Of a stretch of DNA of 64,000 nt, positions 853 to 19,400 are shown piece by piece. Numbering within the stretch: position 1 is the stretch's first letter; every line of letters begins with the position of its first letter. Below the pieces are notes generated by a model that was not told the origin of the DNA, did no database searches, and was given only the letters and a program-made list of their open reading frames with translations. This stretch comes from Desulfobotulus alkaliphilus. Its GTDB lineage: Bacteria; Desulfobacterota; Desulfobacteria; Desulfobacterales; ASO4-4. The translations under genes were made by a program, and so were the position numbers. The DNA lies in contig NZ_VLLC01000010.1 in NCBI RefSeq assembly GCF_007830435.1, positions 1 through 64,000 of the forward strand, written 5' to 3'.

Positions 853-1926
<1,074 letters not shown>

Positions 1927-2120: not shown

Positions 2121-2681
2121 GTGCCAAACAACATAAAAACTGATGAAACAAAAAAGGGCCGAGTGCTCTGGATTACCGGGCTTTCCGGTGCCGGTAAAAC
2201 GACCCTTAGCCGCCTCCTTTTTCTGCGCTTACGCCAGTTGGAACTTGCCCCCATATTACTTGATGGCGATGAACTCCGTGCAGTATTCGGACAGCAGGCC
2301 TATAACATGCAAAGCCGTCTTGAACTTGGCTATTCATATATAAATCTCTGCAAGACACTGAGCAGCCAGGGGCATATTGTTATTATTGCAGTGATTGGCC
2401 TGATCAAAGATCTACATTTGTATAGAAAGCAACAACTGCCTGATTGTTTTGATATTTTCCTGGATGTTCCGATCAGTGAACTTCAGCTGCGTGATCCCAA
2501 GGGCTTGTATCTCAAATACAGACAAGGCTTAGTAAAAGATGTTTACGGTTTAGACTTAAAAGCCGATCCACCACCATCTCCACATCTTCATCTACGCTTT
2601 GATCCTTGTAAAAATGCAGAAGACTGGGCAGCTCAGGTAGAGGATGCCTTATCTACCTATCTTGTTAATGGCCAAGCCTGA
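2121..2681 (+). CDS. CysC-like (adenylylsulfate-kinase family) nucleotide kinase
   Basis: 186 aa from a GTG at 2121 with TAGGAGAG upstream; an in-frame TTG at 2100 lacks such a site. It has the APS-kinase P-loop ([14 protein letters not shown]), the LLDGDELR segment, and the lid [11 protein letters not shown]. The APS-binding FISP(Y/F)RxDR segment is replaced by [14 protein letters not shown], so the acceptor is probably not APS. It begins a tight run with a cytidylyltransferase/PEP mutase. In Campylobacter phosphoramidate synthesis a CysC homologue (Cj1415) phosphorylates the 3'-hydroxyl of a CMP-linked donor; by analogy this kinase may act on CMP-phosphonate. That substrate is inference. 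No sulfate-activation genes are nearby. Confidence 0.75.
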
Positions 2682-2698
2682 ATATAAAGGAATGTATT

Positions 2699-4024
2699 AT
2701 GCCTGATTCAGAATCACAACGGGATAAAAAAAAAGTCTATCTTGGCATGAGCGCCGATCTGGTGCATCCTGGTCATCTAAATATTATTCGTACCGCAGCA
2801 GGTCTTGGTGAAGTTACGGTTGGTCTTCTCACAGATGAAGCCATTGCCAGCTATAAACGCATTCCATATATGTCCTTTGATCAGCGCAGGGAAGTGATTG
2901 AAAATATTAAGGGGGTGGATCGGGTTGTAGCCCAGACCACGCTGGATTATGTGCCGAACCTTGAAGCCCTGAAGCCAGACTATGTGGTACATGGTGATGA
3001 CTGGCGTGATGGGATACAGAAAACAACCCGTCAGAGGGTGATAGACTGCCTTGCACAATGGGGTGGTGAGCTGGTGGAAGTTCCTTATACGCAGGGTATT
3101 TCATCCACACAGATCAACAGGGCTTTGCGTGATATTGGTACAACGCCGGATATACGTCTAAATTCCCTGAAAAGAATGTTAAAGGTCAAGCCCCTTCTGC
3201 GTTTTCTTGATATTCATAACGCCCTTTGTGGCCTTATCATAGAAAACACCGCCATGGTAAACGAAAAAGGCAGGTGTGAATTTGACGGCATGTGGGGCAG
3301 TAGCCTTACGGATTCCACGGCAAAGGGCAAGCCAGACATAGAAGCCGTTGATGTTTCTTCCCGCATCCATACCCTTAACGAGGTTCTGGAAGTCACAACA
3401 AAACCCATTATCTATGATGCGGACACAGGCGGACAGCCGGAGCATTTTGCATTTACCGTTAAAACCCTTGAAAGACTCGGGGTATCAGCTGCCATTATTG
3501 AAGATAAAACCGGTTTGAAGAAAAATTCGCTGTTTGGAACGGATGTGCCTCAAACCCAGGACAGTGTGGAAAACTTCTGCCATAAAATACAGGTAGGCAA
3601 AAAAAGTCAGGCCACGGACGGGTTTATGATTATAGCCAGAATAGAAAGTCTGATTCTGGGGAAAGGCGTAGAAGATGCACTGATGCGGGCCAGAGCCTAC
3701 CTGCAGGCTGGTGCGGACGGCATTATGATTCACAGCAGAAACAAAACACCCGATGAGGTATTTGCCTTCTGCAGGGAATACAATAGATTTGAAAACCGTA
3801 AACCCCTTGTGGCCGTACCTTCAAGCTATAATCATGTCACTGAAGCCGAGCTGCAGGAACATGGTGTAAATATTGTCATATATGCCAATCATCTTCTTCG
3901 CAGTGCCTATCCTGCCATGGTAAAAACAGCGGAATGTATTCTACGGTATGGCCGTTCTTCAGAATGTGACGCACAGCTCATGCCCATAAAAGAAATTCTG
4001 GAGCTGATTCCGGGTACCCGTTAG
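2699..4024 (+). CDS. aepX: Bifunctional cytidylyltransferase / phosphoenolpyruvate mutase (Fom1-like)
   Basis: 441 aa fusion. Residues about 10-140 form a nucleotidylyltransferase ([15 protein letters not shown] with the HxGH motif; later [10 protein letters not shown]). Residues about 160-440 are phosphoenolpyruvate mutase, which makes the C-P bond by turning PEP into phosphonopyruvate; the signature EDKxxxKxNS is complete ([10 protein letters not shown] near residue 266). The same two-domain order occurs in Fom1 of fosfomycin synthesis, whose N-terminal domain couples 2-hydroxyethylphosphonate to CMP. The following genes supply decarboxylation and reduction, so a CMP-activated hydroxyethylphosphonate is the likely product. 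AAAGGA precedes the ATG. No fom3 or fom4 homologue is present, so an antibiotic is unlikely. Confidence 0.92.
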
Positions 4025-4070
4025 CAGTATTGATCCATGATTCTTTTAAACAATATGAAAGATACCCGCT

Positions 4071-5204
4071 ATGCTTTCTCCTGAAACATTTTTTGATACC
4101 TTACGCAGAAAGGGTATTGATTTATTTGCAGGTGTGCCGGATTCTCTTTTGTCTGGTATCTGCGCCTGCATAGAAGATCGCTGCCCCAAAAGCTCTCATG
4201 TGATTACTGCCAATGAAGGCAATGCCATAGCCCTTGCGGCGGGTTTTCATCTGAGTACGGGGAAGACTGCTGCTGTATATATGCAGAATTCAGGGCTTGG
4301 TAACTGCATCAATCCCCTCACTTCCCTTACAGATCCTGAAGTTTACCGTATCCCTGTACTGCTCATTATCGGCTGGAGAGGAGAACCTTCGGTAAAGGAT
4401 GAGCCGCAGCATGTCAAGCAAGGCCGCATAACGGAAAAGCAGCTTAATCTTCTTGAAATCCCATACTGGATACTGGATGGAAACACAGATATGAAAAAAG
4501 TTGTCCAGCAGGCCGTGGACAGCCTGAATAAAAACGCTTCACCAGCAGCCATTCTTGTCCGTAAAAATACCTTTTCTCCATATAAAAGCTCTCAAAAAAC
4601 AACGATGCCATCCACATTGAAGCGGGAAGATGCACTGGCCTGCATACTTCGCCTTGCAAAAGATGATCTCATCATATCCACTACAGGAAAAACATCCCGT
4701 GAAGTGTATGCCTTAAGAGAATCATTCAATCAGAAACAGCGAGATTTTCTCACCGTGGGTTCCATGGGGCATACATCATCCATTGCCCTGGGCGTTGCCC
4801 TTGGAAGACCTGAAAAACGGGTGATATGCCTTGATGGTGATGGTTCTCTGCTTATGCATATGGGTGCCATCCCTGTGATTGGAAGCATGAAGCCTGAAAA
4901 TTTTATCCATGTTTTACTCAATAACGGTGCCCATGAATCCGTTGGCGGTCAGCCTACCGTGGCAAACAGGGTGGACTTTGCATCGCTTAGCCTTGCATGC
5001 GGATACAAAAAATATGAAAAAGTATGCGACATTGAAGGTATTCAGAGGGCATGGCAAAAGCTGGGCAGGGAGAAAGGGCCTTTAATGCTGGAAGTTGTTA
5101 TAAAAACAGGATCAAGGGCTGATCTGGGAAGGCCTTCTACAACACCGGCGGAAAACAAGCAGGCATTTATGCAGGCTGCTATGGAGGGTGCTGTTCATGG
5201 ATGA
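4071..5204 (+). CDS. aepY: Phosphonopyruvate decarboxylase
   Basis: 377 aa thiamine-diphosphate enzyme that pulls the unfavourable PEP mutase reaction forward by decarboxylating phosphonopyruvate to phosphonoacetaldehyde. Visible: the PYR-domain start FAGVPDSLLSGICA, VITANEGNAIALAAG with the catalytic Glu, MQNSGLGNCINPL, and the TPP/Mg motif GDGSLLMHMG followed by LLNNGAHESVGGQPT near residues 265-300. Length matches AepY/Fom2/Ppd enzymes rather than larger acetolactate synthases. It follows the PEP mutase by 46 bases and its 3' end overlaps the next gene by 8 bases, so the three are co-translated. Confidence 0.93.
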   Translation: MLSPETFFDTLRRKGIDLFAGVPDSLLSGICACIEDRCPKSSHVITANEGNAIALAAGFHLSTGKTAAVYMQNSGLGNCINPLTSLTDPEVYRIPVLLIIGWRGEPSVKDEPQHVKQGRITEKQLNLLEIPYWILDGNTDMKKVVQQAVDSLNKNASPAAILVRKNTFSPYKSSQKTTMPSTLKREDALACILRLAKDDLIISTTGKTSREVYALRESFNQKQRDFLTVGSMGHTSSIALGVALGRPEKRVICLDGDGSLLMHMGAIPVIGSMKPENFIHVLLNNGAHESVGGQPTVANRVDFASLSLACGYKKYEKVCDIEGIQRAWQKLGREKGPLMLEVVIKTGSRADLGRPSTTPAENKQAFMQAAMEGAVHG

Positions 5205-6387
5205 CCCCTGTGCTGACATGGCCCGTGCCTCATACTGGAATCATTACAATCCAGTCAGAATCATAGCTGGTGCAGGCGCAATAAATCATATCGGGCTATG
5301 TATGGAGCAGTTCTTTCCTGCCCCTGATCCATCAGAAACAGGAAAACAAAAGCATACCGGCACAATCCTGCTACTGACAAGTAAAGGATTTACCCGCAGG
5401 GGAGCAGTAGATAGGCTTTGTGGTATTATTGTCTCTGCAAGGCCCTGGGTGCATATGGAGATCCATGATTCTGTTCAGCCAAATCCGGATATGCGGGATA
5501 TGGAAAGCCTGACCCACAAATACAAAGGTCACACCATCAGCGGCATTATTGCAATGGGTGGCGGAAGTGTACTGGATACGGGTAAGGTTCTTTCTGTACT
5601 GCTACCCCATATTGTTGCAAACTCTGAGTATGCAGGGCTTGAAGATATTCTCTGTCAGGGGAAAAAGCCTCACTTTTTTAAAAAAATACCCTTGATCGCC
5701 ATCCCCACCACAGCGGGAACCGGTGCTGAAGTGACGCCCTTTGCAACGATCTGGGATGCGCTAAGGCATAAAAAATATTCCCTCAGCGATAATCTTGTTT
5801 TTCCCTGTCATGCCTTATCTGATCCTGAACTCACCCTATCGCTCCCCGAAGAAGAAACAGTGAATACAGGGCTGGATGCCCTTTCCCATGCACTGGAATC
5901 CCTGTGGAATATAAACCGTACTCCCCTAAGCGAAGCTCTTGCATGGCAGGCGCTATATCTTGGGGTAAAGGCCCTGCCAGCTGTTCTTGAACAGCCAGAA
6001 TCCATTGATAAAAGAGCACAAATGACGCATGCAGCCCTTCTTTCTGGTCTTGCAATCAGTCAGACCAAAACAGCACTGGCCCACAGTATTTCTTATCCCC
6101 TTACCAGCCGTTTTAATATCCCCCATGGTCTTGCATGCAGCTTTACACTGGCCGAAATGATACGGCTGTCTGTAAAGGAGAAAGTTTTTCCTGTACATTA
6201 CTCTGCTCTGCTTAAGGAACTTATTTTTCTGCTGGAAAGCCTTGGTTTGAAGAATCGGATAGGCAAGTATGCTTCCTTTAAGGATATTTTGAATGAAAAT
6301 GAGGCCATGCATACACCTGAACGAGCTGACAACTGCATTATCAAGCCGGATCTTATTCGATTGCTCAAACAGTCACTAAACATTTAA
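5197..6387 (+). CDS. Iron-dependent alcohol dehydrogenase, probable phosphonoacetaldehyde reductase
   Basis: 396 aa group III Fe-ADH. The ATG at 5197 is preferred because GGAGG at 5183-5187 is well placed for it; an in-frame GTG at 5188 is too close. Seen: nucleotide motif GGGSVLDTGK, IPTTAGTGAEVTPFATIWD, and the metal-ligand pattern in TGLDALSHALE and FNIPHGLACSF. Relatives next to PEP mutase and phosphonopyruvate decarboxylase (FomC, PhpC, DhpG) reduce phosphonoacetaldehyde to 2-hydroxyethylphosphonate. There is no aminotransferase of the AEP type (PhnW/AepZ) in this window, which favours the alcohol over 2-aminoethylphosphonate. Translationally coupled to the decarboxylase. Confidence 0.87.
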   Translation: MDDPCADMARASYWNHYNPVRIIAGAGAINHIGLCMEQFFPAPDPSETGKQKHTGTILLLTSKGFTRRGAVDRLCGIIVSARPWVHMEIHDSVQPNPDMRDMESLTHKYKGHTISGIIAMGGGSVLDTGKVLSVLLPHIVANSEYAGLEDILCQGKKPHFFKKIPLIAIPTTAGTGAEVTPFATIWDALRHKKYSLSDNLVFPCHALSDPELTLSLPEEETVNTGLDALSHALESLWNINRTPLSEALAWQALYLGVKALPAVLEQPESIDKRAQMTHAALLSGLAISQTKTALAHSISYPLTSRFNIPHGLACSFTLAEMIRLSVKEKVFPVHYSALLKELIFLLESLGLKNRIGKYASFKDILNENEAMHTPERADNCIIKPDLIRLLKQSLNI

Positions 6388-6424
6388 AGCTGGTACAAGC
6401 AAATTACAACAAGAAGAGGCCATA

Positions 6425-7276
6425 ATGAGTGTTAAAAAAATAGCAATTTTTACTGTTGGATATTATGGAAGAGCAACCTACAGAGCCCTCATAAAGAAAA
6501 ACGATATAATAGTAACGGGCTTTTACGATAATAATCCTAATTTATGGGGTACAACAAAGTTTGACTTACCCATATGGAATCCTAAAAAAATTTCAGAACA
6601 TGATTTTGATACAATTGCAGTCCCAGGCCGAGTGCAAAAAGAGATTACCGAACAACTCCTTAGCATGGGCATAAAACATGAAAAAATATGGCATGTTGCC
6701 AAAAACGAGATAAGACCTGACAAAACAGCCCTTGACAGTAGAACGCAGCTACTTAAAGAATTATTCATCCCGCTTATCAATTTCTTGAATAAATCAAATA
6801 TCCCATACTGGGCAATGTACTCATGCTTACTCGCTATTATCAGGGGCGATGAACCTGCCTCATTTGCCGATTTTGATATTTTTTATGATTCAAAATTTAC
6901 AAAATTAATCAATGATTTTTTTGTCATACACTATATAAAAAAAGACCCAGAAAATTCTGTTATATATAAATATGATAACAATAACTCAAATATAGAAATA
7001 ATTAATTTGATAAAAGGTAATCAAAAAAATAAAATACATGAACCAGCAATTATTTCTCTAATGCCAGTTGACCAATCTGAAAAACATCTTTATTCAAAGT
7101 ATAATTTGGACAAAAAAATCCCACTGTTTTTTTTTACAACTAAAAACTATAAAAAATATTTTGGCCTTGACATTTCAATCCCTCATCAATCAGAAATACT
7201 TCTCGAATTTCTCTATGGAAAAGACTGGAAAACACCTCATAACTACTGGGATGGAAAACACAATATGACATTCTAA
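6425..7276 (+). CDS. Rossmann-LicD fusion, candidate phosphonate transferase
   Basis: 283 aa with two parts. Residues 1-105 look like a small Rossmann domain (IAIFTVGYYGRATYRALIKK, then DIIVTGFYDNN), as found fused to glycan enzymes. Residues about 110-280 resemble LicD, the nucleotidyltransferase-fold family that moves phosphocholine or related phospho-alcohols from CDP/CMP donors to glycans: IPYWAMYSCLLAIIRGDE, an Asp-Phe-Asp metal motif (FADFDIFYD, near residue 150), and the closing LLEFLYGKDWKTPHNYW. It follows the dehydrogenase by 37 bases and completes a make-activate-transfer set. The gene is AT-rich with many poly-A runs compared with neighbours, a sign of transfer. Similarity to LicD is moderate, and the acceptor is unknown. 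Confidence 0.68.
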   Translation: MSVKKIAIFTVGYYGRATYRALIKKNDIIVTGFYDNNPNLWGTTKFDLPIWNPKKISEHDFDTIAVPGRVQKEITEQLLSMGIKHEKIWHVAKNEIRPDKTALDSRTQLLKELFIPLINFLNKSNIPYWAMYSCLLAIIRGDEPASFADFDIFYDSKFTKLINDFFVIHYIKKDPENSVIYKYDNNNSNIEIINLIKGNQKNKIHEPAIISLMPVDQSEKHLYSKYNLDKKIPLFFFTTKNYKKYFGLDISIPHQSEILLEFLYGKDWKTPHNYWDGKHNMTF

Positions 7277-7751: not shown

Positions 7752-8477
7752 ATGAATATCGCCATCATCCCAGCAAGGGGCGGTAGTAAACGTATTCCAG
7801 GAAAAAATATACGCTCTTTTGCCGGAAAGCCAATGATTGCCTATAGTATTGAGGCTGCCATACTTTCAGGCCTTTTCGATCGAATAATCGTTTCAACTGA
7901 TTCTCCCGAAATTGCATCAACAGCACGAAAATATGGCGCTGAAGTACCCTTTCTCCGCCCTGAGAAACTCTCAGATGATCACACACCCACAACACCCGTT
8001 CTGCTTCACTGTCTTCAACATCTTGAAAAGAAAAACACACTACCTGAATATGCCTGTTGTATTTATGCCACAGCTCCTCTGATTCAGCCCTGTTTCATCA
8101 AAAAAGGCTATAAAACCATTAAAACTCGAAAAGTTTCTTCTGTGTTTTCCGTCACAAGCTTTACCTTTCCTATTTTCAGAGCCTTGCACATTACAGAAAC
8201 AGGACACCTTGCCATGTTCTGGCCTGAACATGAGCTGACCCGATCCAACGATCTTCCCGAAGCCTTTCATGATGCAGGACAATTTTACTGGTTCGACTGC
8301 AGAAAATTCATGAAGCACCCGAAAATATATACCGACGATGCCCTGCCTGTAATTCTACCCCGCCACCTGGTTCAGGATATTGATACAGAAGAAGACTGGC
8401 AAAGGGCGGAGTACCTTTACAAAGCACTGCAACTCGAAATAAATCATACTCCAAGCAAAAGACAAACAACCCAATAA
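7752..8477 (+). CDS. pseF: CMP-pseudaminic acid synthase (acylneuraminate cytidylyltransferase family)
   Basis: 241 aa. Activates pseudaminic acid with CTP to give the CMP-sugar used by flagellin glycosyltransferases. The N-terminus holds the family motif IPARGGSKRIPGKNI, then VSTDSPEIASTARKYGAEVPFLRP, DHTPTTPVL, and the C-terminal LVQDIDTEEDWQRAEYLY. Length fits PseF. AAGAGGAAACC precedes the ATG. It opens the second half of the glycan run after the transposase remnant and is followed after 23 bases by a methyltransferase. Confidence 0.93.
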   Translation: MNIAIIPARGGSKRIPGKNIRSFAGKPMIAYSIEAAILSGLFDRIIVSTDSPEIASTARKYGAEVPFLRPEKLSDDHTPTTPVLLHCLQHLEKKNTLPEYACCIYATAPLIQPCFIKKGYKTIKTRKVSSVFSVTSFTFPIFRALHITETGHLAMFWPEHELTRSNDLPEAFHDAGQFYWFDCRKFMKHPKIYTDDALPVILPRHLVQDIDTEEDWQRAEYLYKALQLEINHTPSKRQTTQ

Positions 8478-8500: not shown

Positions 8501-9130
8501 ATGACAACAAAAAAATATCAAACCGAACAGGAAAATTTTTGGGCAGGATCATTTGGTAACGAATATATGGAAAGAAACAGAGATCCCCTGCTTGTTTCTT
8601 CAAATATCCACCTGTTTTCAGAAATCATTGCCTGCACAAAGGATGTACACAGCATTTTTGAAGTCGGCGCTAATATCGGTCTCAATATTGACGCACTGAA
8701 CCAGCTTTGCCCCGAAAAAACCACTTCCTCTCTGGAACTCAACACTGAAGCCTTCAGCACCTTAAAAAACAAATGCACGGGCGAAGCATACCAGGGTTCA
8801 GTTCTGGATTTAAATCCTTCTGAACTACCAACCTTTGACTTTACCTTCACCAAGGGTGTTCTCATACACATCCATCCGGACAAACTACCTCTGGTTTATG
8901 AAAAACTATACCAGCTATCCTCAAAATATCTCTGCATCATTGAATACTACAATCCCACACCCGTTGAAGTAGAATATCGGGGGTTCAGAAACAAACTTTT
9001 CAAAAGGGATTTTGCAGGAGAAATACTCACGGCTTATCAGGATCTGAAACTTGTCAATTATGGGTTCAAATATCATAAAGACAATAACTTTCCCATAGGG
9101 GATGTTACATGGTTTTTGCTGAAAAAATAA
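8501..9130 (+). CDS. Pseudaminic-acid-biosynthesis-associated methyltransferase
   Basis: 209 aa class I SAM-dependent methyltransferase. The N-terminus TEQENFWAGSFGNEYMERN and the SAM-binding FEVGANIGLNIDAL, followed by SSLELNTEA and TKGVLIHIHPDKL, match the family repeatedly found between pseF and pseG genes. Its substrate is not established; a methylated pseudaminic derivative is a reasonable guess. AGGAAAACT precedes the ATG, and the last 22 bases overlap pseG. Confidence 0.85.
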   Translation: MTTKKYQTEQENFWAGSFGNEYMERNRDPLLVSSNIHLFSEIIACTKDVHSIFEVGANIGLNIDALNQLCPEKTTSSLELNTEAFSTLKNKCTGEAYQGSVLDLNPSELPTFDFTFTKGVLIHIHPDKLPLVYEKLYQLSSKYLCIIEYYNPTPVEVEYRGFRNKLFKRDFAGEILTAYQDLKLVNYGFKYHKDNNFPIGDVTWFLLKK

Positions 9131-10248
9131 AAAAACCTTGCGTCATTTTCCGTACAGATGCATCTCAAATAATTGGAACAGGTCATGTCATGAGATGTCT
9201 GACTTTAGCTTCTGAATTTAAAAAAAAAGGTATTCAATGCCATTTTGTCTGCAAAAATCATCCTGGCAATCTTACTTCAAAAATTCAGGAGCAGGGCTTT
9301 ACTGTTCATCTGATACCCCTAAGCAAGAAAGTTCATCACACAAACAGCCAATACCAAGATTCCTATAACCCATGGCTGGGTAGTTCATCAAAGGAAGATG
9401 CCGCAGAAACACTTAAAATTCTAAAACTATTGAAACCTCTTTGGGTTGTTCTGGATCACTACTCAATCGGCAGTCAATGGGAACGACAAATACGTCCTTT
9501 CACCTCCAAAATTATGGTGCTGGATGACTTAGCTAATCGCACTCATGATTGTGACATACTCTTAGATCCAAATCGTAATCCTGATTCTGATGACTATAAA
9601 CCACTCACGCCGTCCCACTGCACACTATTGCTTGGAAGTGCCTATGTGCTTTTGCGGGAAGAATTCATAAATATGCAGGCTCAAAGCCTGGAGCGTCGAA
9701 ATTGCCCTGCTCTCAATAATATTCTTATTACCATGGGGGGAACAGATCCCAACAATAATACAGGCCGCATCCTGAAATACCTCCAAGAATCCCCCAGTAT
9801 CAAGGATTTAAATATTTCTGTGGTACTTGGAAGCCAGGCCCCCCACCTGAAAACTATCCAACAACAGATTAAATTGCTTTCCTGCACTACCCAGCTTTAC
9901 ATAGATACCAAAAATATGGCAACAATTATGGCTGAAAATGATTTAGCCATTTCTGCATGTAGCAGCACATCCTGGGAATGTTGCTACATGGGGCTCCCTG
10001 CAATTCTTTTAGTTACGGCAGAGAACCAAAAATTTTTAGCTGACTCCTTAAAAAAAAACAGTTCCTTGTGGATTTTTAATAATTCAGATTATGGTATTTC
10101 TAAAATTCCTGAAATAATAACAGAACTGAAAAAAAACAACGATGCTTTTAAAAAGATAAATCCTCAAAATCAATCACTTATTGATGGCAGAGGAAAAGAA
10201 AGAATCATTGATCAAATAAAAGGACTTAATCAAAAACTAAAAAAATAA
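9109..10248 (+). CDS. pseG: UDP-2,4-diacetamido-2,4,6-trideoxy-L-altropyranose hydrolase, PseG
   Basis: 379 aa GT-B-fold hydrolase that releases UDP from the 6-deoxy-AltdiNAc nucleotide before the PseI condensation. Seen: FRTDASQIIGTGHVMRCLTLA at the N-terminus with the essential Gly-Thr-Gly-His, VLDDLANRTHDCDILLDPN, ITMGGTDPNN, and SACSSTSWECCYMGLPAI near the C-terminus. The ATG at 9109 lies inside the methyltransferase gene with AGGGGATG upstream, so translation is coupled. Longer than the smallest PseG proteins because of extra loops. AT content rises from here to about 12300. Confidence 0.92.
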   Translation: MVFAEKIKKPCVIFRTDASQIIGTGHVMRCLTLASEFKKKGIQCHFVCKNHPGNLTSKIQEQGFTVHLIPLSKKVHHTNSQYQDSYNPWLGSSSKEDAAETLKILKLLKPLWVVLDHYSIGSQWERQIRPFTSKIMVLDDLANRTHDCDILLDPNRNPDSDDYKPLTPSHCTLLLGSAYVLLREEFINMQAQSLERRNCPALNNILITMGGTDPNNNTGRILKYLQESPSIKDLNISVVLGSQAPHLKTIQQQIKLLSCTTQLYIDTKNMATIMAENDLAISACSSTSWECCYMGLPAILLVTAENQKFLADSLKKNSSLWIFNNSDYGISKIPEIITELKKNNDAFKKINPQNQSLIDGRGKERIIDQIKGLNQKLKK

Positions 10249-10362: not shown

Positions 10363-11643
10363 ATGATAAATGAAAGAATTTTTATTAGTGACGCAGCCGG
10401 AGTAATTGAAAGTAAAATGGTACCACGATTAATTGAGCTGGGAGCACAGGTTTTTGTTGGAGACCTTAAGCCAAAACCAAAATTCTTTCCTGCTGAAGGA
10501 ATGATACGATTGGCAGAATCTTCCGAATTAAAAGGAGTGGTAAATTTGGGTGCCGGTAAAGTAAGACGGGTATCTGATATTATTGAGGTCATAAAATCAA
10601 ATATTCCAAATACGAATATAGAAACAGAGGATTCTGTCACTGATATCGAATATGAAAAAAGAAAACTATCCGGAAAAAAACAATATAGTTGTCAAAATGT
10701 ATTGATAACAAGTGCAGGACGAAAAATACCCCTTATAAATTCTGTGGTTGATGGTGTTAAGCGGTTAAATTCAAAAAATCGGGTATATGTAACTGATATT
10801 AATTCAAAAGTACATTCTCAGTATGTCAGTGATGGTTTTATACAACTTCCTGCAACCGACCCAATTAATATTGACGCAATTATAAAGATTTGTTGTGAGT
10901 TTAATATCAATATGATTATTCCAACCCGTGATGGAGAACTCTTGTTCTGGGCTAAAAATCAAGACAAGTTCAAGCAGGATGGAATTGATATCGTTATATC
11001 TGGGGCAGAAGCCGTCTCTACATGTATTGATAAATTAGCTTTTGCCATATTTGGCATTGACATGAAACTTCCTATAATACCTGCATGGGAATCACCACAA
11101 GGAAATGGGCCTTTTGTAGTAAAAGAAAGATTTGGCGCAGGCAGTCGCTCCATAGGTTTAAATCTTTCGCAGGAACAAGCTATTCAACATGGTAAAAATC
11201 TCGATCATCCTATATTTCAGCCTTACATTACTGGTCAAGAAATCAGTGTGGATGCATGGATCGACCGCAATCATAAAGTAAAGGGACTTATACTGCGCTT
11301 GCGTAATGAAATTATAAATGGTGAATCTGTAGTAACAACTACCTTCCGGAATCAAGACTTAGAAAAACAATGCATAAAAATATTGGAAGCATTGCCACTT
11401 AAAGGACCTGTCGTTATTCAGATTCTCATTGATAAATCTGGTTATCCACATATTATCGAATTAAACACTCGTTTTGGCGGCGCCTCTACCGCATCAATTG
11501 CGGCAGGTTTGGATATCTGGTATTGGACATTGCTGGAAGCAAATGGTGAGAATTTAAAAAATTATCCATTCCATAGATGTGTTCAGGATATTCGCCAGAT
11601 AAGAGTACCAAAGGATTTAGTGATCTATGGTTCTGATTTTTGA
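10363..11643 (+). CDS. ATP-grasp enzyme fused to an internally deleted NAD-dependent epimerase domain
   Basis: 426 aa. Residues 1-50 read like the first part of an extended SDR (ERIFISDAAGVIESKMVPRL, then VFVGDLKPKP), and residues 50-100 like its C-terminal part (EGMIRLAESSELKGVVNLGAG, then VSDIIEVIK); the roughly 200 central residues with the catalytic Tyr-Lys are absent. From about residue 110 a complete CarB/PylC-like ATP-grasp follows: NVLITSAGRKIPLINSVV, FNINMIIPTRDGELL, VVKERFGAGSRSIGL, HIIELNTRFGG with metal-binding Glu/Asn. ATP-grasp enzymes join a carboxylate to an amine or thiol, so amide formation on the sugar is possible; the substrate is unknown. Overlaps the HAD gene by 17 bases. 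Confidence 0.75.
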   Translation: MINERIFISDAAGVIESKMVPRLIELGAQVFVGDLKPKPKFFPAEGMIRLAESSELKGVVNLGAGKVRRVSDIIEVIKSNIPNTNIETEDSVTDIEYEKRKLSGKKQYSCQNVLITSAGRKIPLINSVVDGVKRLNSKNRVYVTDINSKVHSQYVSDGFIQLPATDPINIDAIIKICCEFNINMIIPTRDGELLFWAKNQDKFKQDGIDIVISGAEAVSTCIDKLAFAIFGIDMKLPIIPAWESPQGNGPFVVKERFGAGSRSIGLNLSQEQAIQHGKNLDHPIFQPYITGQEISVDAWIDRNHKVKGLILRLRNEIINGESVVTTTFRNQDLEKQCIKILEALPLKGPVVIQILIDKSGYPHIIELNTRFGGASTASIAAGLDIWYWTLLEANGENLKNYPFHRCVQDIRQIRVPKDLVIYGSDF

Positions 11644-12298
11644 TCTTGATGATACCTTATATGAAGAGCGTACTTTTGTACTGAGCGGGCTTAAGGCTGT
11701 TTCTCGATTTGGTCATGATCGATTTGGCTGGAATCCAGAGACTTCCTTCAACTTTATGATAAACATTTTTAATAATTATGGTCGAGGCACTATTTTTGAC
11801 CGCTGGCTTTCATATCATGGTACTTGGAGTAAATCCTTAGTCAATGAGTGTATAAAGTGCTACCGTTACCATACTCCGAATATTGAATTGAATTCTACCG
11901 CAAAAAAAATATTACCATTACTTAAAGAAACACCACTCTATCTGGTAACGGATGGGCATAAAGTAGTGCAAGCGAACAAAGTTGACGCCCTTGGTTTAGA
12001 AGCATTTTTTAAGCGTATTATGATTACACACAGGTTTGGACTAAAGCATGCCAAACCATCCATTTACTGCTTCGAAAAAATAAAAGCTTCTGAAAATTGT
12101 TCATGGTCCGACATGGTTTACATTGGAGACAATCCGGCAAAAGATTTCATCAATCTCAATCCATTGGGCGTTCATACAATTCGTGTACTGACAGGTGAAT
12201 ACAGTAAAGTAATTGGTAAATCAGGCTATGAAGCACAATATCAAATTCAGGCCCTTGACGAATTATTGGTTGCTTTAGACCATTTAAAAGACCAATGA
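11627..12298 (+). CDS. HAD-superfamily hydrolase
   Basis: 223 aa. The nucleophile motif FDLDDTLYEE is at the N-terminus, the Ser/Thr motif in LYLVTDGHK, the Lys in KHAKPSIYCF and the acidic motif in VYIGDNPAKDF, so all four HAD motifs are present and a phosphatase or phosphotransfer activity is expected. The ATG at 11627 lies inside the ATP-grasp gene with AAGGATTTAG upstream. The pairing of ATP-grasp and HAD in a sialic-type sugar cluster suggests a joint modification step, but the substrate cannot be told from sequence. Confidence 0.8.
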   Translation: MVLIFDLDDTLYEERTFVLSGLKAVSRFGHDRFGWNPETSFNFMINIFNNYGRGTIFDRWLSYHGTWSKSLVNECIKCYRYHTPNIELNSTAKKILPLLKETPLYLVTDGHKVVQANKVDALGLEAFFKRIMITHRFGLKHAKPSIYCFEKIKASENCSWSDMVYIGDNPAKDFINLNPLGVHTIRVLTGEYSKVIGKSGYEAQYQIQALDELLVALDHLKDQ

Positions 12299-12350: not shown

Positions 12351-13403
12351 ATGTCCGAACCCTATATATATATTAATAATCGCCGAATATCACCCCTTAC
12401 CCCTCCCTATATCATTGCCGAACTTTCCGCCAACCACAATGGCAGCTTGGAAAGGGCCCTCGCCATTCTGGAAACGGCCAAAAAATCCGGCGCGGATGCC
12501 GTCAAGCTCCAGACCTATACGGCAGACACCCTCACCCTCAACTGCGATACCGAAGACTTTCAGATCAAAGGTGGCCTCTGGGACGGAAAAAGCCTGTATG
12601 AACTTTACCAGTGGGCCCACATGCCCTGGGACTGGCACGCTCCACTCTTTCAACGGGCAAGGGAACTTAACATAACAATCTTCAGTACGCCTTTTGATAA
12701 AACCGCTGTGGATCTTCTGGAAGATTTAAACGCTCCGGCCTATAAAATAGCCTCCTTTGAAGCCGTTGATCTCCCCCTGATCCGCTATGCCGCTTCCACA
12801 AAAAAGCCCATGATCATTTCCACGGGCATGGCGGACATAGAGGAAATCGCAGAAGCTGTTCAGGCCGCAGAAGACGGAGGCTGCACGGAGCTTGCACTCC
12901 TGCACTGTGTCAGCGGCTACCCGGCGCCTCCCGAAGATTACAACCTGAAAACCATCCCAGACATGATGACCCGCTTCGGCAAAGTCACAGGGCTTTCCGA
13001 CCATACCTTAGACAACGCGACAGCCATTGCCAGCGTGGCCTTGGGTGCCGCCATCATCGAAAAGCATTTTACCCTCGACAGAAAGGGCGGAGGCCCGGAT
13101 GACAGCTTTTCCTTAGAGCCTCCCCAGCTTGAAGCCCTCTGCCGGGATGCCAAGACCGTCTGGCAGGCCTTAGGCAAGGTGGATTACGGCAGAAAATCCA
13201 GTGAACAAGCCAATGCCCTCTTTCGTCGATCCCTCTATTATATAAAAGATATGAAGGCCGGAGAAATCCTTGATGAAGAAAGTGTGCGGAGCATACGCCC
13301 TGGATATGGCCTGGCACCTAAATATCTGAACAATGTTCTTGGAAAAAGGCTTACATCTGATACTCGAAAAGGTAGCCCGGTTAATTGGAAGGACATACTT
13401 TAA
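12351..13403 (+). CDS. pseI: Pseudaminic acid synthase
   Basis: 350 aa NeuB-family enzyme that condenses the free 2,4-diacetamido sugar with PEP. Seen: YIIAELSANHNGSLERA, GADAVKLQTYTADT, FSTPFDKTAVDLLE, YKIASFEAVDLPLI, STGMADIEEI, LHCVSGYPAP, GLSDHT, EKHFTLDR, and a C-terminal SAF/antifreeze-like domain (RSLYYIKDMKAGEIL to SVRSIRPGYGL). The E-x-x-x-x-x-D specificity region and FDKTAVDLLE favour pseudaminic over N-acetylneuraminic acid. AAAAGGAGA precedes the ATG. GC content returns to that of the flagellar genes here. Confidence 0.94.
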   Translation: MSEPYIYINNRRISPLTPPYIIAELSANHNGSLERALAILETAKKSGADAVKLQTYTADTLTLNCDTEDFQIKGGLWDGKSLYELYQWAHMPWDWHAPLFQRARELNITIFSTPFDKTAVDLLEDLNAPAYKIASFEAVDLPLIRYAASTKKPMIISTGMADIEEIAEAVQAAEDGGCTELALLHCVSGYPAPPEDYNLKTIPDMMTRFGKVTGLSDHTLDNATAIASVALGAAIIEKHFTLDRKGGGPDDSFSLEPPQLEALCRDAKTVWQALGKVDYGRKSSEQANALFRRSLYYIKDMKAGEILDEESVRSIRPGYGLAPKYLNNVLGKRLTSDTRKGSPVNWKDIL

Positions 13404-13467
13404 AAACTTCTCTATAATGAGTTATGCAGATAACAATATATACTATAAAAAATACATGGAGCCCCCT

Positions 13468-16335
13468 ATGTCCCTTGACCACAGCTATTATGATCAGAAC
13501 ATAAATCTTCTGAAAGAAAATCACCCCGAGGCCTGGCGTGTGGTCATGGATTATGCAGAACCCCTTCCCGGAGAAATCCATACCGCAAAAGATGGCAATC
13601 CCCTTCTCGTCATCTCAGGTCCAGATGGAAAAGAAATCTGTTTCCATGATAAAAACGATACCCTTGCAGAACTTCAGAGCTATTACAATTTAGTTCCCAT
13701 AAGCAGCACGGGGGTTGCCGCATTCATCGGCATGGGCCTTGGCTACACCCCCCCTGCCATGCTTGAAGACCATAAAAACCTCCGCCATCTGCTGATGTTA
13801 GAGCCCCATACGGGCATATTCTTACAAGCCCTCCATACAAGGGATCTGAGCGTACTACTCACAGATCCAAGGGTATTGCTGGGCATAGGCCCTGATGTCA
13901 ATGTAAAAGAACTGATGTTTCCCATCAACAGGGCTTTGCAACTGGAAAGCTTCCATGTTCTAAAGCACAACCCCTGCTTTCATTTTGCACCAGACCTTTA
14001 CAGGCGTATCCACGATGAAGTTTTTTCCTTTGGTAACAGCTTTAACATGGAAGGCAACACCCTTTCCGCATACGGAAAAAAATTCATAGAAAACCGGTTC
14101 AAGCATCTAAGAACCATCCATCACCATCAGCTTCTGGAAAATCTGAAGGACAGATTTAAAGACAAACCTGCCATCATTGTGGCAGGCGGCCCATCTCTGG
14201 ATAAAAATATTCATCTGCTGACAAAGGCAAAGGATAAGGCCCTTATCATTGCCGCAGACACCGTACTTCCGGCCCTTAAGGCCCATGGACTTACACCTGA
14301 TTTTGTCTCTGCCATAGACATGCAGGATATTGCCATTGAAAAAATCATCAGCCTTGCTGATCAGCCTCTGGACACGGCCCTTGTATGTACTTCATGGCTT
14401 AATGCAAGAATACCGAAAGTTTTTCCCGCAAGGCAGGTTTACTGGACCTTTACCGCAAAAAACATGGAAGCATGGCTAAACAGCCTTGCAGGTGGTAAAA
14501 TCATGACCACAGGTGCGGGTACCGTTGCCCAGCTCAACTTCATCACAGCCATTATGCTAGGCTGCTCACCCATCATCTTTGTGGGTCAGGATCTGGCCTT
14601 TTCCAAAGATCAAAGACATGCCAGCCATACAAACTTGACCAGGGAGATCTCCCCATATGAAAGTAAAAATAAAAATATGATCTGGGTAGATGCCTATGGC
14701 GGCAATGGCCAGGTAGCAACCACCAGGTCTTTCCTCGGTTTTAAAACCCACTTTGAAGATGCCATAGCCGCAGAAAAAGATCGCTTGTTTATCAATGCCA
14801 CAGAAGGCGGGGTACGCATAAAGGGAACGGAAGAACTCCCCCTTGAAACCGTTATCGAGCGCCATTGCAAAGACAATTTAAATATCAAAGAAACACTCCT
14901 CGATAATGAATGCAGCAATAAAATGCCTTCTTCCCTGCGTCTTATGGATTCCTTATCCAGAATACAAAAAGACATAAAAAACAGTTCTAAAAAAATCCAG
15001 CAACTGGAAAAACACATCCAGAGCATCAAAAAACAAAGCCTGAACTTACAGAAAAAAGGCATTTCACCTCCCAACAGTCAGGCCCTGCCCCATGCCATGC
15101 GCCGGGAAATGCAGGAGCTTGATGCCATCAGCCTGAAGCTGGACAATGAAAAAATATGGCCCCTCCTTGATGAAATAACCATGGAAGGGCTGAGGCAGAG
15201 TGAAAGACTGAACCATGAAATTCAACAGCTGGAAAACAGGCCGGAACAATTTTTAAACTGGCTTTTAAAATCTCTGGAAAGGCTTAAAATTATCAATGAT
15301 TTTAGAAAAGAGGTTCTGAATTTCTTTTCTGACACGGTAAACCAAACCCATGCTTTTATGCAGAAAGAAGAAATTCTGCTAAAAAAATCACAAAAAAATA
15401 ATGCTATAATAGCGGCCTCAGCCCTCCTGCAGCTTTACAGCGAGCATGAAGAGATTAATCTTCTTGAAAAAGTATTTGAACAATTAAAACCTCAAATCGA
15501 TGAGTCGCTGGTATATTTATATCATGGAATTATAGCAGCCCATCGCTGCCTGTTCGATAGGATGGAAACTAACTTTACAAAGGCCATAAATCTGGAGCCT
15601 TCCTTTGAGGAAGTTACCCGGCAAATTCGAATAAGAATTGCCCGGTTCCACAATAACTACTATTCTTTTATACCTTTAGAATCACCTGTTTTCAGAGTTA
15701 AAACAAAACTTAAAGCATTTCGTTATAATTCAGGCCTGCCAGAAATCTCAGAAAAAATACTTTTTTTTTCAAGGCGGTTAATTGAGGAATCAGAAAAATT
15801 TATAAAGGAACCAACCCTTTCCTTTCCAAAAGAAACCCTCCAGCTCTGGCACAAAGAACAAATGGAAAACCCAAACCTGCTCCAGCTTGTGACCCCAGAA
15901 AAAGCCTCCGTCATTCACAGCTTCTATGCCAGATACCTCATCACTAAAGAAAATTTAAGCGAAGCAGCCAACGCCCTTCAAGCAGCCACAAAGCTTACCC
16001 CGGATAATCCGGAGCTGCATCTTCTGCTGGCGGATATCTTTTTTGCCACAAAAAACTTCCCCGAAGCCATCACAGCACTGGACAAGGCCGTGGCACTGGA
16101 TCGAAGCCTTGGTGTGGAATGGGAGCATATCGGAGACAGCCTCATGGCATCCGGTCAGGCAGAAGATGCGGCAGCAGTTTATGAGAAAAGCTTTCTGGCC
16201 CTGCCGGAAAATCTTCATCTTCTGAAAAAAATAGGAGATGCCTACCTTGCCATCAACCAGCCCGAAGCAGCAAGGGAAGCCTACCGCCTCCTCAATGAAA
16301 AACTCAGTGCCGCCGGTATGCAGAATGAATCATAA
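13468..16335 (+). CDS. maf: Motility-associated factor (Maf) glycosyltransferase with TPR tail
   Basis: 955 aa from the ATG at 13468 (GGAG 6 bases before). Maf proteins attach nonulosonic acids to flagellin Ser/Thr. The DUF115/MptE-like core carries FIGMGLGYTPPAMLEDH, the motif IIVAGGPSLDKNI near residue 237, DFVSAIDMQD and PIIFVGQDLAFSKDQRHAS. A coiled-coil stretch follows (about 490-600), then from about 820 at least three TPR units (ALQAATKLTPDNPELHLLLA, ITALDKAVALDRSLGVEWEH, VYEKSFLALPENLHLLKKIG). It stands between pseI and the first flagellin, the usual place for a flagellin-modifying Maf. The TPR extension is an addition to the basic family, perhaps for binding flagellin or FliS. Confidence 0.88.
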   Translation: MSLDHSYYDQNINLLKENHPEAWRVVMDYAEPLPGEIHTAKDGNPLLVISGPDGKEICFHDKNDTLAELQSYYNLVPISSTGVAAFIGMGLGYTPPAMLEDHKNLRHLLMLEPHTGIFLQALHTRDLSVLLTDPRVLLGIGPDVNVKELMFPINRALQLESFHVLKHNPCFHFAPDLYRRIHDEVFSFGNSFNMEGNTLSAYGKKFIENRFKHLRTIHHHQLLENLKDRFKDKPAIIVAGGPSLDKNIHLLTKAKDKALIIAADTVLPALKAHGLTPDFVSAIDMQDIAIEKIISLADQPLDTALVCTSWLNARIPKVFPARQVYWTFTAKNMEAWLNSLAGGKIMTTGAGTVAQLNFITAIMLGCSPIIFVGQDLAFSKDQRHASHTNLTREISPYESKNKNMIWVDAYGGNGQVATTRSFLGFKTHFEDAIAAEKDRLFINATEGGVRIKGTEELPLETVIERHCKDNLNIKETLLDNECSNKMPSSLRLMDSLSRIQKDIKNSSKKIQQLEKHIQSIKKQSLNLQKKGISPPNSQALPHAMRREMQELDAISLKLDNEKIWPLLDEITMEGLRQSERLNHEIQQLENRPEQFLNWLLKSLERLKIINDFRKEVLNFFSDTVNQTHAFMQKEEILLKKSQKNNAIIAASALLQLYSEHEEINLLEKVFEQLKPQIDESLVYLYHGIIAAHRCLFDRMETNFTKAINLEPSFEEVTRQIRIRIARFHNNYYSFIPLESPVFRVKTKLKAFRYNSGLPEISEKILFFSRRLIEESEKFIKEPTLSFPKETLQLWHKEQMENPNLLQLVTPEKASVIHSFYARYLITKENLSEAANALQAATKLTPDNPELHLLLADIFFATKNFPEAITALDKAVALDRSLGVEWEHIGDSLMASGQAEDAAAVYEKSFLALPENLHLLKKIGDAYLAINQPEAAREAYRLLNEKLSAAGMQNES

Positions 16336-16412: not shown

Positions 16413-16448
16413 GGGCGCATGGAAGCGCCCCTTTACCACACAGGGAGG
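16413..16448 (+). promoter_or_regulatory. CsrA-type translational control site in flagellin 1 leader
   Basis: A perfect 6-bp stem GGGCGC/GCGCCC (16413-16418 with 16425-16430) presents ATGGAA as the loop, so GGA is exposed. A second GGA sits in the ribosome site GGGAGG at 16443-16448, 7 bases before the ATG. Two GGA sites, one in a hairpin loop and one on the Shine-Dalgarno, is the known arrangement for CsrA repression of flagellin. csrA and fliW are encoded at 27689-28412. Confidence 0.7.
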
Positions 16449-16454
16449 TACCCC

Positions 16455-19400
16455 ATGAGAATCAATACAAACGTGTCGGCACTCAATGCCCACAAAAATC
16501 TCACACAGGCAGATAACAGAATCGGCAGTTCTCTGGAGCGCCTGTCATCGGGCCTGCGCATCAACCGTGCAGCGGATGACGGCTCCGGCATGACCATTGC
16601 CGACTCACTGAGATCCCAGGGACTGGGCCTTGGTCAGGCCATCAGAAACGCAAATGACGGTATCAACATCGTTCAGACGGCGGATGCTGCCCTGGAAGAA
16701 TCCATTAACATCATCAATACCATCAAGCAGAAATCCATTCAGGCGGCCCAGGACGGCCAGACCACGGAAACCAGAGCAGTTATTCAGGCAGACATTGATA
16801 AACTGCTTGAAAACCTTGATACCATTGCCAACACCACATCCTTCAACAACCAGAAGCTCCTTTCCGGTGCCTTCACCAACAAGCAGTTCCAGGTGGGAGC
16901 CTACACAGGAGAGACGGTCAACATCTCCATCTCTGCCTCACAGTCCAGCAGAATCGGCCATGTGACCACAAGTAACCTTACCCTGAAAGACAACCAGCCC
17001 GGTGTTGTGGATCTGGCCATTTACTCCAACACCCTGGATCAGACCTTTGATGTGGAAGCAGTGAATGTTCAGTATAACAACTCCCGCGAAAGCGGTATGG
17101 GCGCAGTGGCAGACGCCATCAACCGCCTCAGCGACACCTTAGGCATTTCAGCAACAGCCTTTGTCCGCTCAACCACAGACCTTGCCGTATCCGCTGGCAC
17201 CACAGACAGTGACTTTGCCATCAACGGCGTAAACATTGGCCAGGTCAATGTACAGAACAACGATTCAGATGGCGCTCTGGTAAAATCCATCAACCAGAAA
17301 ACCGCCCAGCACGGTGTTTTTGCATCCGTAGATACAAGAGGACACCTGACCCTTACATCAACGGATGGCCGGGCCATTCAGGTAAATACCGGCGGCCAGG
17401 CCACAGACGACATTCTCCGCAACACCCAGATGAGCACGGTGGGTCATGTTCAGCTCACCCAGATGAGTGCCTCGGAAATTGTTGTCAACAATGCAGGCGG
17501 CGGTGATGTGGTCAGCCTCACAAATAACCTGGATGTGCAGCGTTCCGACGCCTACACCATGGAAGCAGAAGCAACCAGGGGTTCCCGGCTGGCAGCCACC
17601 TCCACCTTAGGCGCAGGCTGGAAAACCAATCAGGACATTGTAACAAGCTCAGCTTTCACAGGCGACATCACCACCACCCAGACCAGCAGTCTTGAAGCTG
17701 GATCCGTACTGGCCGGTGGCTCCACCGCCGTATTCCAGGGAACAGTGCACGGGGATGTCACCCTTGCCGAAAACTCAAAGCTGACCACAGCTCCCAGCAC
17801 CCTGGCCCTGTACTCAGACATTAAATCAGGCAGTACCCTTGCCGCAGGTACCACCTTTACCAATGGCGTGAGCAGTGGTGGTGGCGTAAAACTGGCCGGT
17901 GAATCCGTCATTGAAGCCACAGGCCAAACCTTTGACGACAACACCATTAAATCCGCCTCCACCCTTGCCGCAGGCACTGTACTGGCGGCCAATACAACCC
18001 TTTCCGGTGTCAGTGTCACCATTGAACAGACAGCAAAAACCGTTGGTGACAGCGATATTAAATCAGGCTCCAGCCTCACCGCAGGTTCCATCATTGGATC
18101 CAATTCAGATCTTACGGGTAACTCTGGCACCATAACCATAGAAGCCACCGGAAATACCATGGGTACCAGCACCATCGGTTCTGGCTCCACCCTGCAAACG
18201 GGTACGGTTCTGGGTAATGGTACCCTCATTGAAAATGTTCAATACACCAGCGGTACATCTTCAGTTTCTGGCGTTAAAATCATGGCTACAGGTCCAGTGA
18301 CTCAGGAAAGCAACATTGCTTCCGGCTCTACACTGAAAGCCGGAACCCTTCTTACGGCTGGTACATTCCTGAGTTCAGGCACAACAATTACGGGTATGGA
18401 CGGTACAAGTTATGGGGGAAGTGGCGTCACCCTTACTGAAGATGTTGTGCTGCAAGCTGATGCAATTGTAAGAAGCGGTGTAACCAGAGCCAATGTTGGC
18501 AGCACCCTTGCAAACAATACTGTCTTGGGAGATCAAAGTCAGGTTTATGCAGATCTTACCCTCGCTGCCGAAACTAAAACAGTATCCGGTACTCTTACCC
18601 TGGCAAACAATTCCAGTCTTGCCGGAGGGTCCATTCTGAAAGAATCTCAGGTGGCAACAGACCTGACCCTGAGAAATGGTACTACCCTAAACTCAGATGT
18701 AACCCTTAAAACAGGCTCCATGCTTGCGGATGGCAGCAATCTCAAAGAAGAGTCTGAGGTGGCTACTGACATCACCCTTAAAGCCAACGCTGATCTAACA
18801 GGAGACCTTTTGGCTGGCAAAGGGTCCAGTTTTGCCGCTGGCACAAGGCTTGAAGTAGATTCCATTATCCACGCTGATGTTACACTGCAAAAGGCTTCAA
18901 CCCTTACAGAGGATATGAACAATATCCTTGCAGAAGTTACCCTTGGAACAGGCTCCATCCTTGCTGAAGACAGCACAATCAAGGGAGGCTCCATTTTCCA
19001 CGGATCTGTGGAAGTTAAAGAGGATGTTTACCTTGCCAGAAAGACCGAGCTTGGTGCAGGCTCCACCATTATACAGGAAGGCTCCTTCATCAAGGCAGGC
19101 TCCACCATCGGCGGAAACGCCACGCTGGATCAGGCTCTCAATGTAACGGGAGACGGATTCACCCTTGGTGTGGGCACCAAACTGACCCAGGGCAGCCAGC
19201 TTGCCAATGGCTCCACCTTTGGCGGCAGCATCACCCTGGCAAATAATGAAACAGTAAAAGGCCAGATGCAGGTAGCCCAGGGTTCCACCCTGGCAGAGGG
19301 CACCAAAATTACCGCTGGCACCTACCTCAGCAATGACATCAGAACCGCTGACGGTATCATGGCCGCAGGCACCGTGCTGAAGGAAGACATTACCACCGTC

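Follow-up and report, generated by a model that had tools for sequence, protein, structure and literature searches.

Nucleotidyl activation of phosphonates is already known, and Fom1 forms CMP-2-hydroxyethylphosphonate (CMP-HEP, with CMP for cytidine monophosphate), as stated in sections of PMC6697681. On flagella, 2-aminoethylphosphonate (AEP) has been measured on the type A glycan of the C. difficile flagellin FliC (sections of PMC8861647), and phosphonate in O-linked protein glycosylation has been proposed for marine microbes (sections of PMC8931226). The product of the cytidine diphosphoramidate kinase is named in a section of PMC6429109. Here we describe a phosphonate gene set of Desulfobotulus alkaliphilus. 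It lies in the 64,000 nucleotides (hereafter the window) at the start of contig C11 (NZ_VLLC01000010.1) of a 4.0-Mb draft genome, which belongs to the same order as Desulfamplus. Five genes on the + strand between positions 2121 and 7276 encode a CysC-like kinase, a fused cytidylyltransferase-phosphoenolpyruvate (PEP) mutase (PepM), a phosphonopyruvate decarboxylase (Ppd), an iron-type alcohol dehydrogenase (Fe-ADH) and a LicD-like protein (Table 1). The run is flanked by pseB and by pseF-pseG-pseI-Maf-fliC, and its coordinates and families are those given by the first-pass annotation.

The main new point concerns the kinase, which on sequence grounds groups with the kinase of the Campylobacter O-methyl phosphoramidate (MeOPN) pathway and not with adenylyl-sulfate (APS) kinases. 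Its gene begins with GTG and is preceded by GGAGAG at 2110-2115. The protein scores 82.8 bits with PF01583, 159.1 bits with NF004041 (cut-off 127) and 95.9 bits with TIGR00455 (apsK), which is below the equivalog cut-off of 138.7 and leaves it outside the APS kinases (CysC). The NF004041 score and its position in one clade with MeOPN-locus kinases place it in the Cj1415-type cytidine diphosphoramidate kinase group. As Cj1415-type reference, standing in for the C. jejuni sequence, we used the kinase of the syntenic Campylobacterales locus L176, which has the MeOPN gene order and a gamma-glutamyl-CDP-amidate hydrolase (NF045546, 314.9 bits, cut-off 250). In a tree of 64 rows, a branch with 100/100 support separates 43 APS-side rows from 21 others. 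The 21 include the kinase of the window and every kinase linked to PepM or MeOPN genes. Eleven of 75 rows were left out of this tree (eight of 47-62 bits and three, L109, L115 and L131, that are fragmentary or hold stops), and L164 was labelled APS by default, its context (L180) holding PepM and Ppd. A quick tree of 85 rows separated 53 from 32 rows (SH-aLRT 86) and placed the window and Desulfamplus kinases beside those of the phosphoramidate loci L291, L292, L294 and L296. The P-loop, DGDxxR and other residues are conserved in 21/21 non-APS kinases. Phe68 and Phe148 (numbered from the TTG at 2100), which in APS kinases presumably stack on the adenine, are present in 43/43 and 41/43 APS-side rows versus 2/21 and 0/21 of the others; Pro101 and mostly Asn76 of the APS kinases are lost on the non-APS side, too.

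The kinase gene lies 17 bases upstream of PepM, and kinases of this type also adjoin PepM in Desulfamplus (L022) and in four Campylobacterales loci. The latter were found among 149 genomes (G450, G542, G530 and G465) and consist of PepM-Ppd with the kinase overlapping or adjoining Ppd and a CysQ-like gene nearby. We searched 345 genomes of the phylum with the kinases of the window and of Desulfamplus; apart from these two themselves, the highest-scoring matches stand beside genes for Cj1416-like nucleotidyltransferases (NTase), Cj1417-like amidotransferases and glutamine-kinase-like proteins. Family searches of the window open reading frames (ORFs) found no glutamine kinase, glutamine amidotransferase (GATase) or Cj1416-type NTase. 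Phosphoramidate or PEP-mutase genes accompany the kinase in 24/29 non-APS-clade loci (4 with PepM and Ppd, 18 with glutamine-kinase-like genes and 2 with GATase and NTase, the remaining 5 being partial or without any) versus 0/49 APS-side loci (Fisher 1.5e-15, PepM alone 0.017, for loci that are not independent). A 28-bit PepM-like match occurs in the APS-side locus L201. All these loci are best-scoring kinase matches; several lie on short contigs, and there are several near-duplicates among them. The window and Desulfamplus stand outside the 29, and lower-scoring kinases beyond the sample may fall on either side. L178 and L186, both among the 29 and counted as phosphoramidate, come from genomes picked for a PepM locus, and the APS controls L228 and L229 likewise from genomes picked through PepM loci.

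The identities of the PEP mutase, the decarboxylase and the Fom1-type cytidylyltransferase are secure as judged by family and motif. The fused protein reaches 399.3 bits with TIGR02320 (cut-off 319.55) and contains the EDK-x5-NS motif; its cytidylyltransferase domain shows HPGH (HxGH) and GISST (ISST). Residues 10-145 match 5x3d (E 9.2e-57), which is listed as a phosphoenolpyruvate phosphomutase chain and which we take to be the Fom1 cytidylyltransferase. Ppd scores 477.9 bits with TIGR03297 (cut-off 312.5). The best family of the Fe-ADH is TIGR03405, but its score of 306.9 bits does not reach the cut-off of 423.7, and the protein is therefore not filed as a TIGR03405 equivalog; its relatives in L022 and L019 likewise remain under the cut-off (332.0 and 276.8). 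We propose it as the best candidate for the formation of 2-hydroxyethylphosphonate (HEP), a role as phosphonoacetaldehyde reductase that rests on gene context. Since no transaminase gene is present among the ORFs of the run, we infer HEP rather than AEP as the product.

From the genes, their order and families, the kinase phylogeny, the contexts and the island synteny we derive a pathway that is a prediction in every reaction, in its acceptor and in its transferase. PepM, Ppd and Fe-ADH would convert PEP via phosphonopyruvate and phosphonoacetaldehyde to HEP, which the fused cytidylyltransferase would activate to CMP-HEP. The CysC-like kinase would then phosphorylate the ribose 3'-OH, analogous to the cytidine diphosphoramidate kinase acting on CDP-amidate in the Campylobacter MeOPN pathway, and thereby yield 3'-phospho-CMP-HEP, a donor resembling 3'-phosphoadenylyl sulfate (PAPS). 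A transferase, possibly the LicD/FKRP-like protein (FKRP, fukutin-related protein), would transfer HEP to the Pse-type glycan linked to flagellin by Maf. The first-pass annotation had predicted CMP-HEP without assigning the kinase a function. A module for making and activating HEP is supported, but as the kinase groups with the MeOPN kinases, plain CMP-HEP appears incomplete as donor and the PAPS analogue 3'-phospho-CMP-HEP is probably used. We see an even chance that the five genes form a swappable tailoring cassette for a flagellin nonulosonate glycan with this donor. Equally balanced is, in our view, the wider proposal that surface P-C and P-N decoration share one donor chemistry, in which a misnamed adenylyl-sulfate kinase makes PAPS-like 3'-phospho-CMP donors; on this view the window kinase came from phosphoramidate pathways and now forms 3'-phospho-CMP-hydroxyethylphosphonate destined for a flagellin glycan. 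In the open-licence literature we found no paper linking adenylylsulfate kinase, phosphonopyruvate decarboxylase and phosphonate, and neither CMP-2-hydroxyethylphosphonate nor 3-phospho-CMP was named there in those spellings.

The window holds a Pse/Maf flagellin glycosylation island, in which pse genes, Maf and flagellin stand together. The Maf domain and the flagellins named by the first-pass annotation as neighbours were both recovered (Table 1). All genes from pseB to the second of the large flagellin genes share the + strand. The gaps between them are short, the two exceptions being 475 bases that separate pseF from the LicD-like gene before it and 900 bases that separate the flagellin genes. 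Two genomes of the same genus (G001 and G002) carry the same island with two flagellins after Maf, and neither gave a match to PEP mutase. In G001, pseF directly follows pseB without any gene between and a formyltransferase-like gene precedes pseI. In G002, pseB and pseF are separated by two other genes, and pseF is followed by WbuX- and WbuZ-like amidation genes (WbuX 327 and 286 bits, cut-off 203). As the slot contents differ, the phosphonate genes of the window fill a variable slot of the Pse-Maf-flagellin island. This synteny is the best, indirect support for HEP going to flagellin. Together with the Alteromonadales islands described below it favours the flagellin glycan with a C-P bond suggested earlier, an idea that is not new as such, given the AEP reported on C. 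difficile FliC. The assumed sigma-54 promoter fared less clearly. The sequence TGGCCC-N5-TTGCT with one mismatch lies 43 bases before the likely ATG of pseB, and sites with at most one mismatch are in excess in the window (10 observed, 3.2 expected), but a looser pattern showed no excess in the window (17 versus 18.2 expected) and the sole exact match (1824-1839) falls within the pseB frame. PseC is encoded on contig C14 (557 bits) beside a GTPase-like gene. Since in G001, by eye, such a gene likewise flanks the island at the end formed by pseC and pseB, the window contig was probably broken immediately before pseB.

Genome contigs were scanned with four PepM sequences, and the best 80 of 543 relatives were kept; gene orders were counted over all reading frames, adjacency meaning that no other queried gene lies between. 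PepM is followed by Ppd in 77/80 of these nearest loci, and the order PepM-Ppd-ADH occurs in 70/80, both more than expected by chance. In 15 loci the queried gene that follows PepM-Ppd-ADH is LicD-like. Two or more Pse genes were present in 15 loci, Maf in 5 and flagellin in 2. In Alteromonas, Paraglaciecola and Aliiglaciecola (Alteromonadales), Pse genes, often with Maf, are followed by PepM-Ppd-ADH-LicD, and these islands are the kinase-free counterpart of the window island. A search for the same gene set elsewhere, as suggested beforehand, recovered the synthesis genes, while a kinase of the window type is absent from 79/80 loci. Nitrincola (L026) and Desulfoarculaceae (L042) do have kinases close to PepM, but these were discarded as support, the tree placing both on the APS side. 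The genome itself has a second PepM-Ppd-ADH set on contig C32 (L019, 8659-16180), whose PepM is 77% identical to that of the window and which, by eye, contains no kinase. Its neighbour encodes a membrane protein with a sulfatase domain, and, by eye, genes resembling those for ABC-type polysaccharide export are close by (L019/L020). A protein family adjoining this set is common to 16/80 of the nearest PepM loci, not counting Desulfamplus, which matched solely through its own query protein, and has no Pfam match; the L019-type gene reads by eye as a CDP-glycerol-phosphotransferase type. Because of this kinase-free set, HEP may also be directed to another surface glycan.

The LicD-like protein matches no Pfam family at E 0.001, PF04991 included, and gives weak NCBIfam matches (21-22 bits). 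Its syntenic homologues match PF04991 and align with it at 20-23% identity. The structure model (pLDDT 77, pTM 0.67) comprises a Rossmann-like and an FKRP-like half, and a structure search with it returned FKRP at rank 2 (E 2.9e-6) after a dehydrogenase at rank 1 (TM 0.27). LicD homology is thus suggested by the alignment to syntenic PF04991 proteins and by the model. Two Asp of the LicD motif (GT, WDDDxD) are kept (149 and 151), while GT and one Asp are lost. Owing to the degraded motif and the failure with PF04991, the earlier assignment as LicD-like transferase holds for fold and alignment but leaves an uncertain transferase, which may be an adapted or an impaired one.

That CMP-HEP itself is the donor for the LicD-like protein, the kinase serving another purpose, appears somewhat unlikely to us. 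LicD enzymes use plain CDP-activated groups, and the Alteromonadales islands as well as the second set of the genome contain PepM-Ppd-ADH without a kinase. Against this stand the closeness of kinase and PepM in the window, in L022 and in the four Campylobacterales loci, and the degraded motif of the window protein, as the LicD proteins of the kinase-free Alteromonadales islands retain WDDDxD. The kinase might instead act on CMP-pseudaminate, which the pseF of the island should yield, or on HEP, whose hydroxyl is free. We regard this as quite improbable, because no PseI match was obtained in the four Campylobacterales PepM-kinase loci and because characterised relatives, among them the cytidine diphosphoramidate kinase that Taylor and Raushel are said to have described in 2018, reportedly act on the ribose 3'-OH. 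That the protein is a genuine APS kinase, supplying PAPS to sulfate the glycan, is hardly credible. NCBIfam does name the NF004041 subfamily adenylyl-sulfate kinase, but the score under the apsK cut-off, the position across the 100/100 branch and the lost APS-side residues all argue otherwise; CysD and CysN were not found among the window ORFs scanned, and the genome gave no match to Sulfotransfer_3 (PF13469; PF00685 was not searched), so that the sulfation reading was set aside.

A destination of HEP other than flagellin, i.e. another surface glycan, would fit the second set near export-like genes and the 65/80 related PepM loci without Pse genes. We consider it unlikely, since the window set lies within a Pse-Maf-flagellin island whose same-genus versions hold other sugar-tailoring genes in their variable slots. 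Our preferred pathway, with 3'-phospho-CMP-HEP as donor for a flagellin glycan, also has to face several contrary findings. In both trees the window kinase sits on a long branch, none of 11 such kinases sampled in Pseudomonadota and Bacteroidota lies beside PepM, and to these add up its absence from most PepM loci and from the second set, the Fe-ADH score and the altered LicD-like protein. The genome search gave no confident PseH (28.1 bits, cut-off 93.1). Furthermore, the CysQ-like bisphosphate nucleotidase standing beside PepM-Ppd-kinase in 4/4 Campylobacterales loci scores just under its cut-off (195-206, cut-off 228.8), and a profile search that matched 14/14 controls found no CysQ-type phosphatase in the window genome; it was dropped as a part of the system.

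Some further observations were made in passing. Phosphoramidate (MeOPN-type) sets stand beside flagellin genes in L292, L294 and L296 (Pseudomonadota) and beside Maf in L178 (Campylobacterales), which suggests P-N decorated flagella. Sulfotransferase-like proteins occur near MeOPN-type kinases, with PF13469 in two of three checked (L185 and L135) and no Pfam family in that of L178; as the genome has no PF13469 match, the idea of a general kinase partner was not extended to the window. L135 (G092) combines MeOPN-type genes, the PF13469 sulfotransferase, Ppd and an aminotransferase on one stretch, i.e. P-N and P-C genes together. By eye, L174 (9398-10372) encodes a fusion of a CysC-like kinase with a GNAT-like domain; PepM-Ppd and another kinase are its neighbours. 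L298 has, by eye, a HAD protein similar to that of the window, with Pse and LicD genes close by. In L020 (8212-8904) and L023 (2564-3013), spurious reading frames for a repeated SHRASRASATGLREPQPPGFE-like peptide stem from a dispersed tandem DNA repeat; one copy neighbours pseC, where the contig was probably broken.

Table 1. Features of the glycosylation island in the window (scores in bits)
Feature	Coordinates	Strand	Basis
Sigma-54-like -24/-12 site	866..881	+	Upstream of pseB; one mismatch to TGGCAC-N5-TTGCW; consensus match only
pseB	925..1926	+	TIGR03589 544, above cut-off; ATG at 925
CysC-like kinase, proposed nucleotide 3'-kinase for CMP-HEP	2121..2681	+	NF004041; clade with MeOPN-type kinases; residue changes
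Fused cytidylyltransferase-PEP mutase (Fom1-like)	2699..4024	+	TIGR02320 above cut-off; PF01467; 5x3d match; motifs
Phosphonopyruvate decarboxylase (Ppd)	4071..5204	+	TIGR03297 above cut-off
Fe-ADH, proposed phosphonoacetaldehyde reductase	5188..6387	+	PF00465; TIGR03405 best but under cut-off; gene order in relatives
Rossmann-like and LicD/FKRP-like domains, candidate transferase, motif partly degraded	6425..7276	+	Alignment, structure model
pseF	7752..8477	+	TIGR03584 322.9, above cut-off
Pse-associated methylase	8501..9130	+	TIGR03587 251.5, above cut-off
pseG	9109..10248	+	TIGR03590 323.9, above cut-off
ATP-grasp protein and HAD hydrolase, between pseG and pseI	10363..12298	+	Family search
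pseI	12351..13403	+	TIGR03586 504.3, above cut-off
Maf-type flagellin glycosyltransferase with TPR tail	13333..16335	+	PF01973 133.5; PF20157 19.6, under cut-off 23.5
Two large flagellin genes	16419-19838 and 20739-24134	+	Frames of 1139 and 1131 aa, flagellin-like starts (by eye)

If correct, the proposed pathway would add an extra step to surface phosphonate tailoring and explain CysC-like kinases beside PEP mutase genes. It would also correct a common annotation, as the kinase is usually labelled a sulfate-activation enzyme, and provide a genetic source for flagellar phosphonates, which were reported in C. difficile without one.

Compared with known systems, the fused protein shares domain order and cytidylyltransferase sequence with Fom1 of fosfomycin synthesis, but Fom1 is surrounded by antibiotic genes whereas its counterpart in the window is accompanied by an ADH, a CysC-like kinase and a LicD-like gene, all within a glycan island. 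The LicD-like protein has the C-terminal fold of LicD/FKRP and the position after the ADH in common with these proteins, and differs by its additional Rossmann-like N-terminal domain, its degraded motif and the lack of a PF04991 match. Surface phosphonate clusters of the PntC/Ppm-NTase type resemble the window in nucleotidyl activation, PF01467 fusions occurring in 23.6% of Ppm proteins; in the cases tested they use AEP with PF12804 enzymes, and the word kinase is absent from the text (PMC6697681). C. difficile FliC carries a phosphonate on its type A flagellin glycan, as predicted for the window, but there it is AEP of unknown source without pepM according to sections of PMC8861647, in contrast to the predicted de novo HEP cassette described here. 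The Campylobacter MeOPN pathway (cj1415-cj1418) has a kinase of the same family and an unusual phosphorus group that is activated with CMP and destined for a surface glycan, but it deals with P-N and the capsule, whereas the window combines C-P with a flagellin island.

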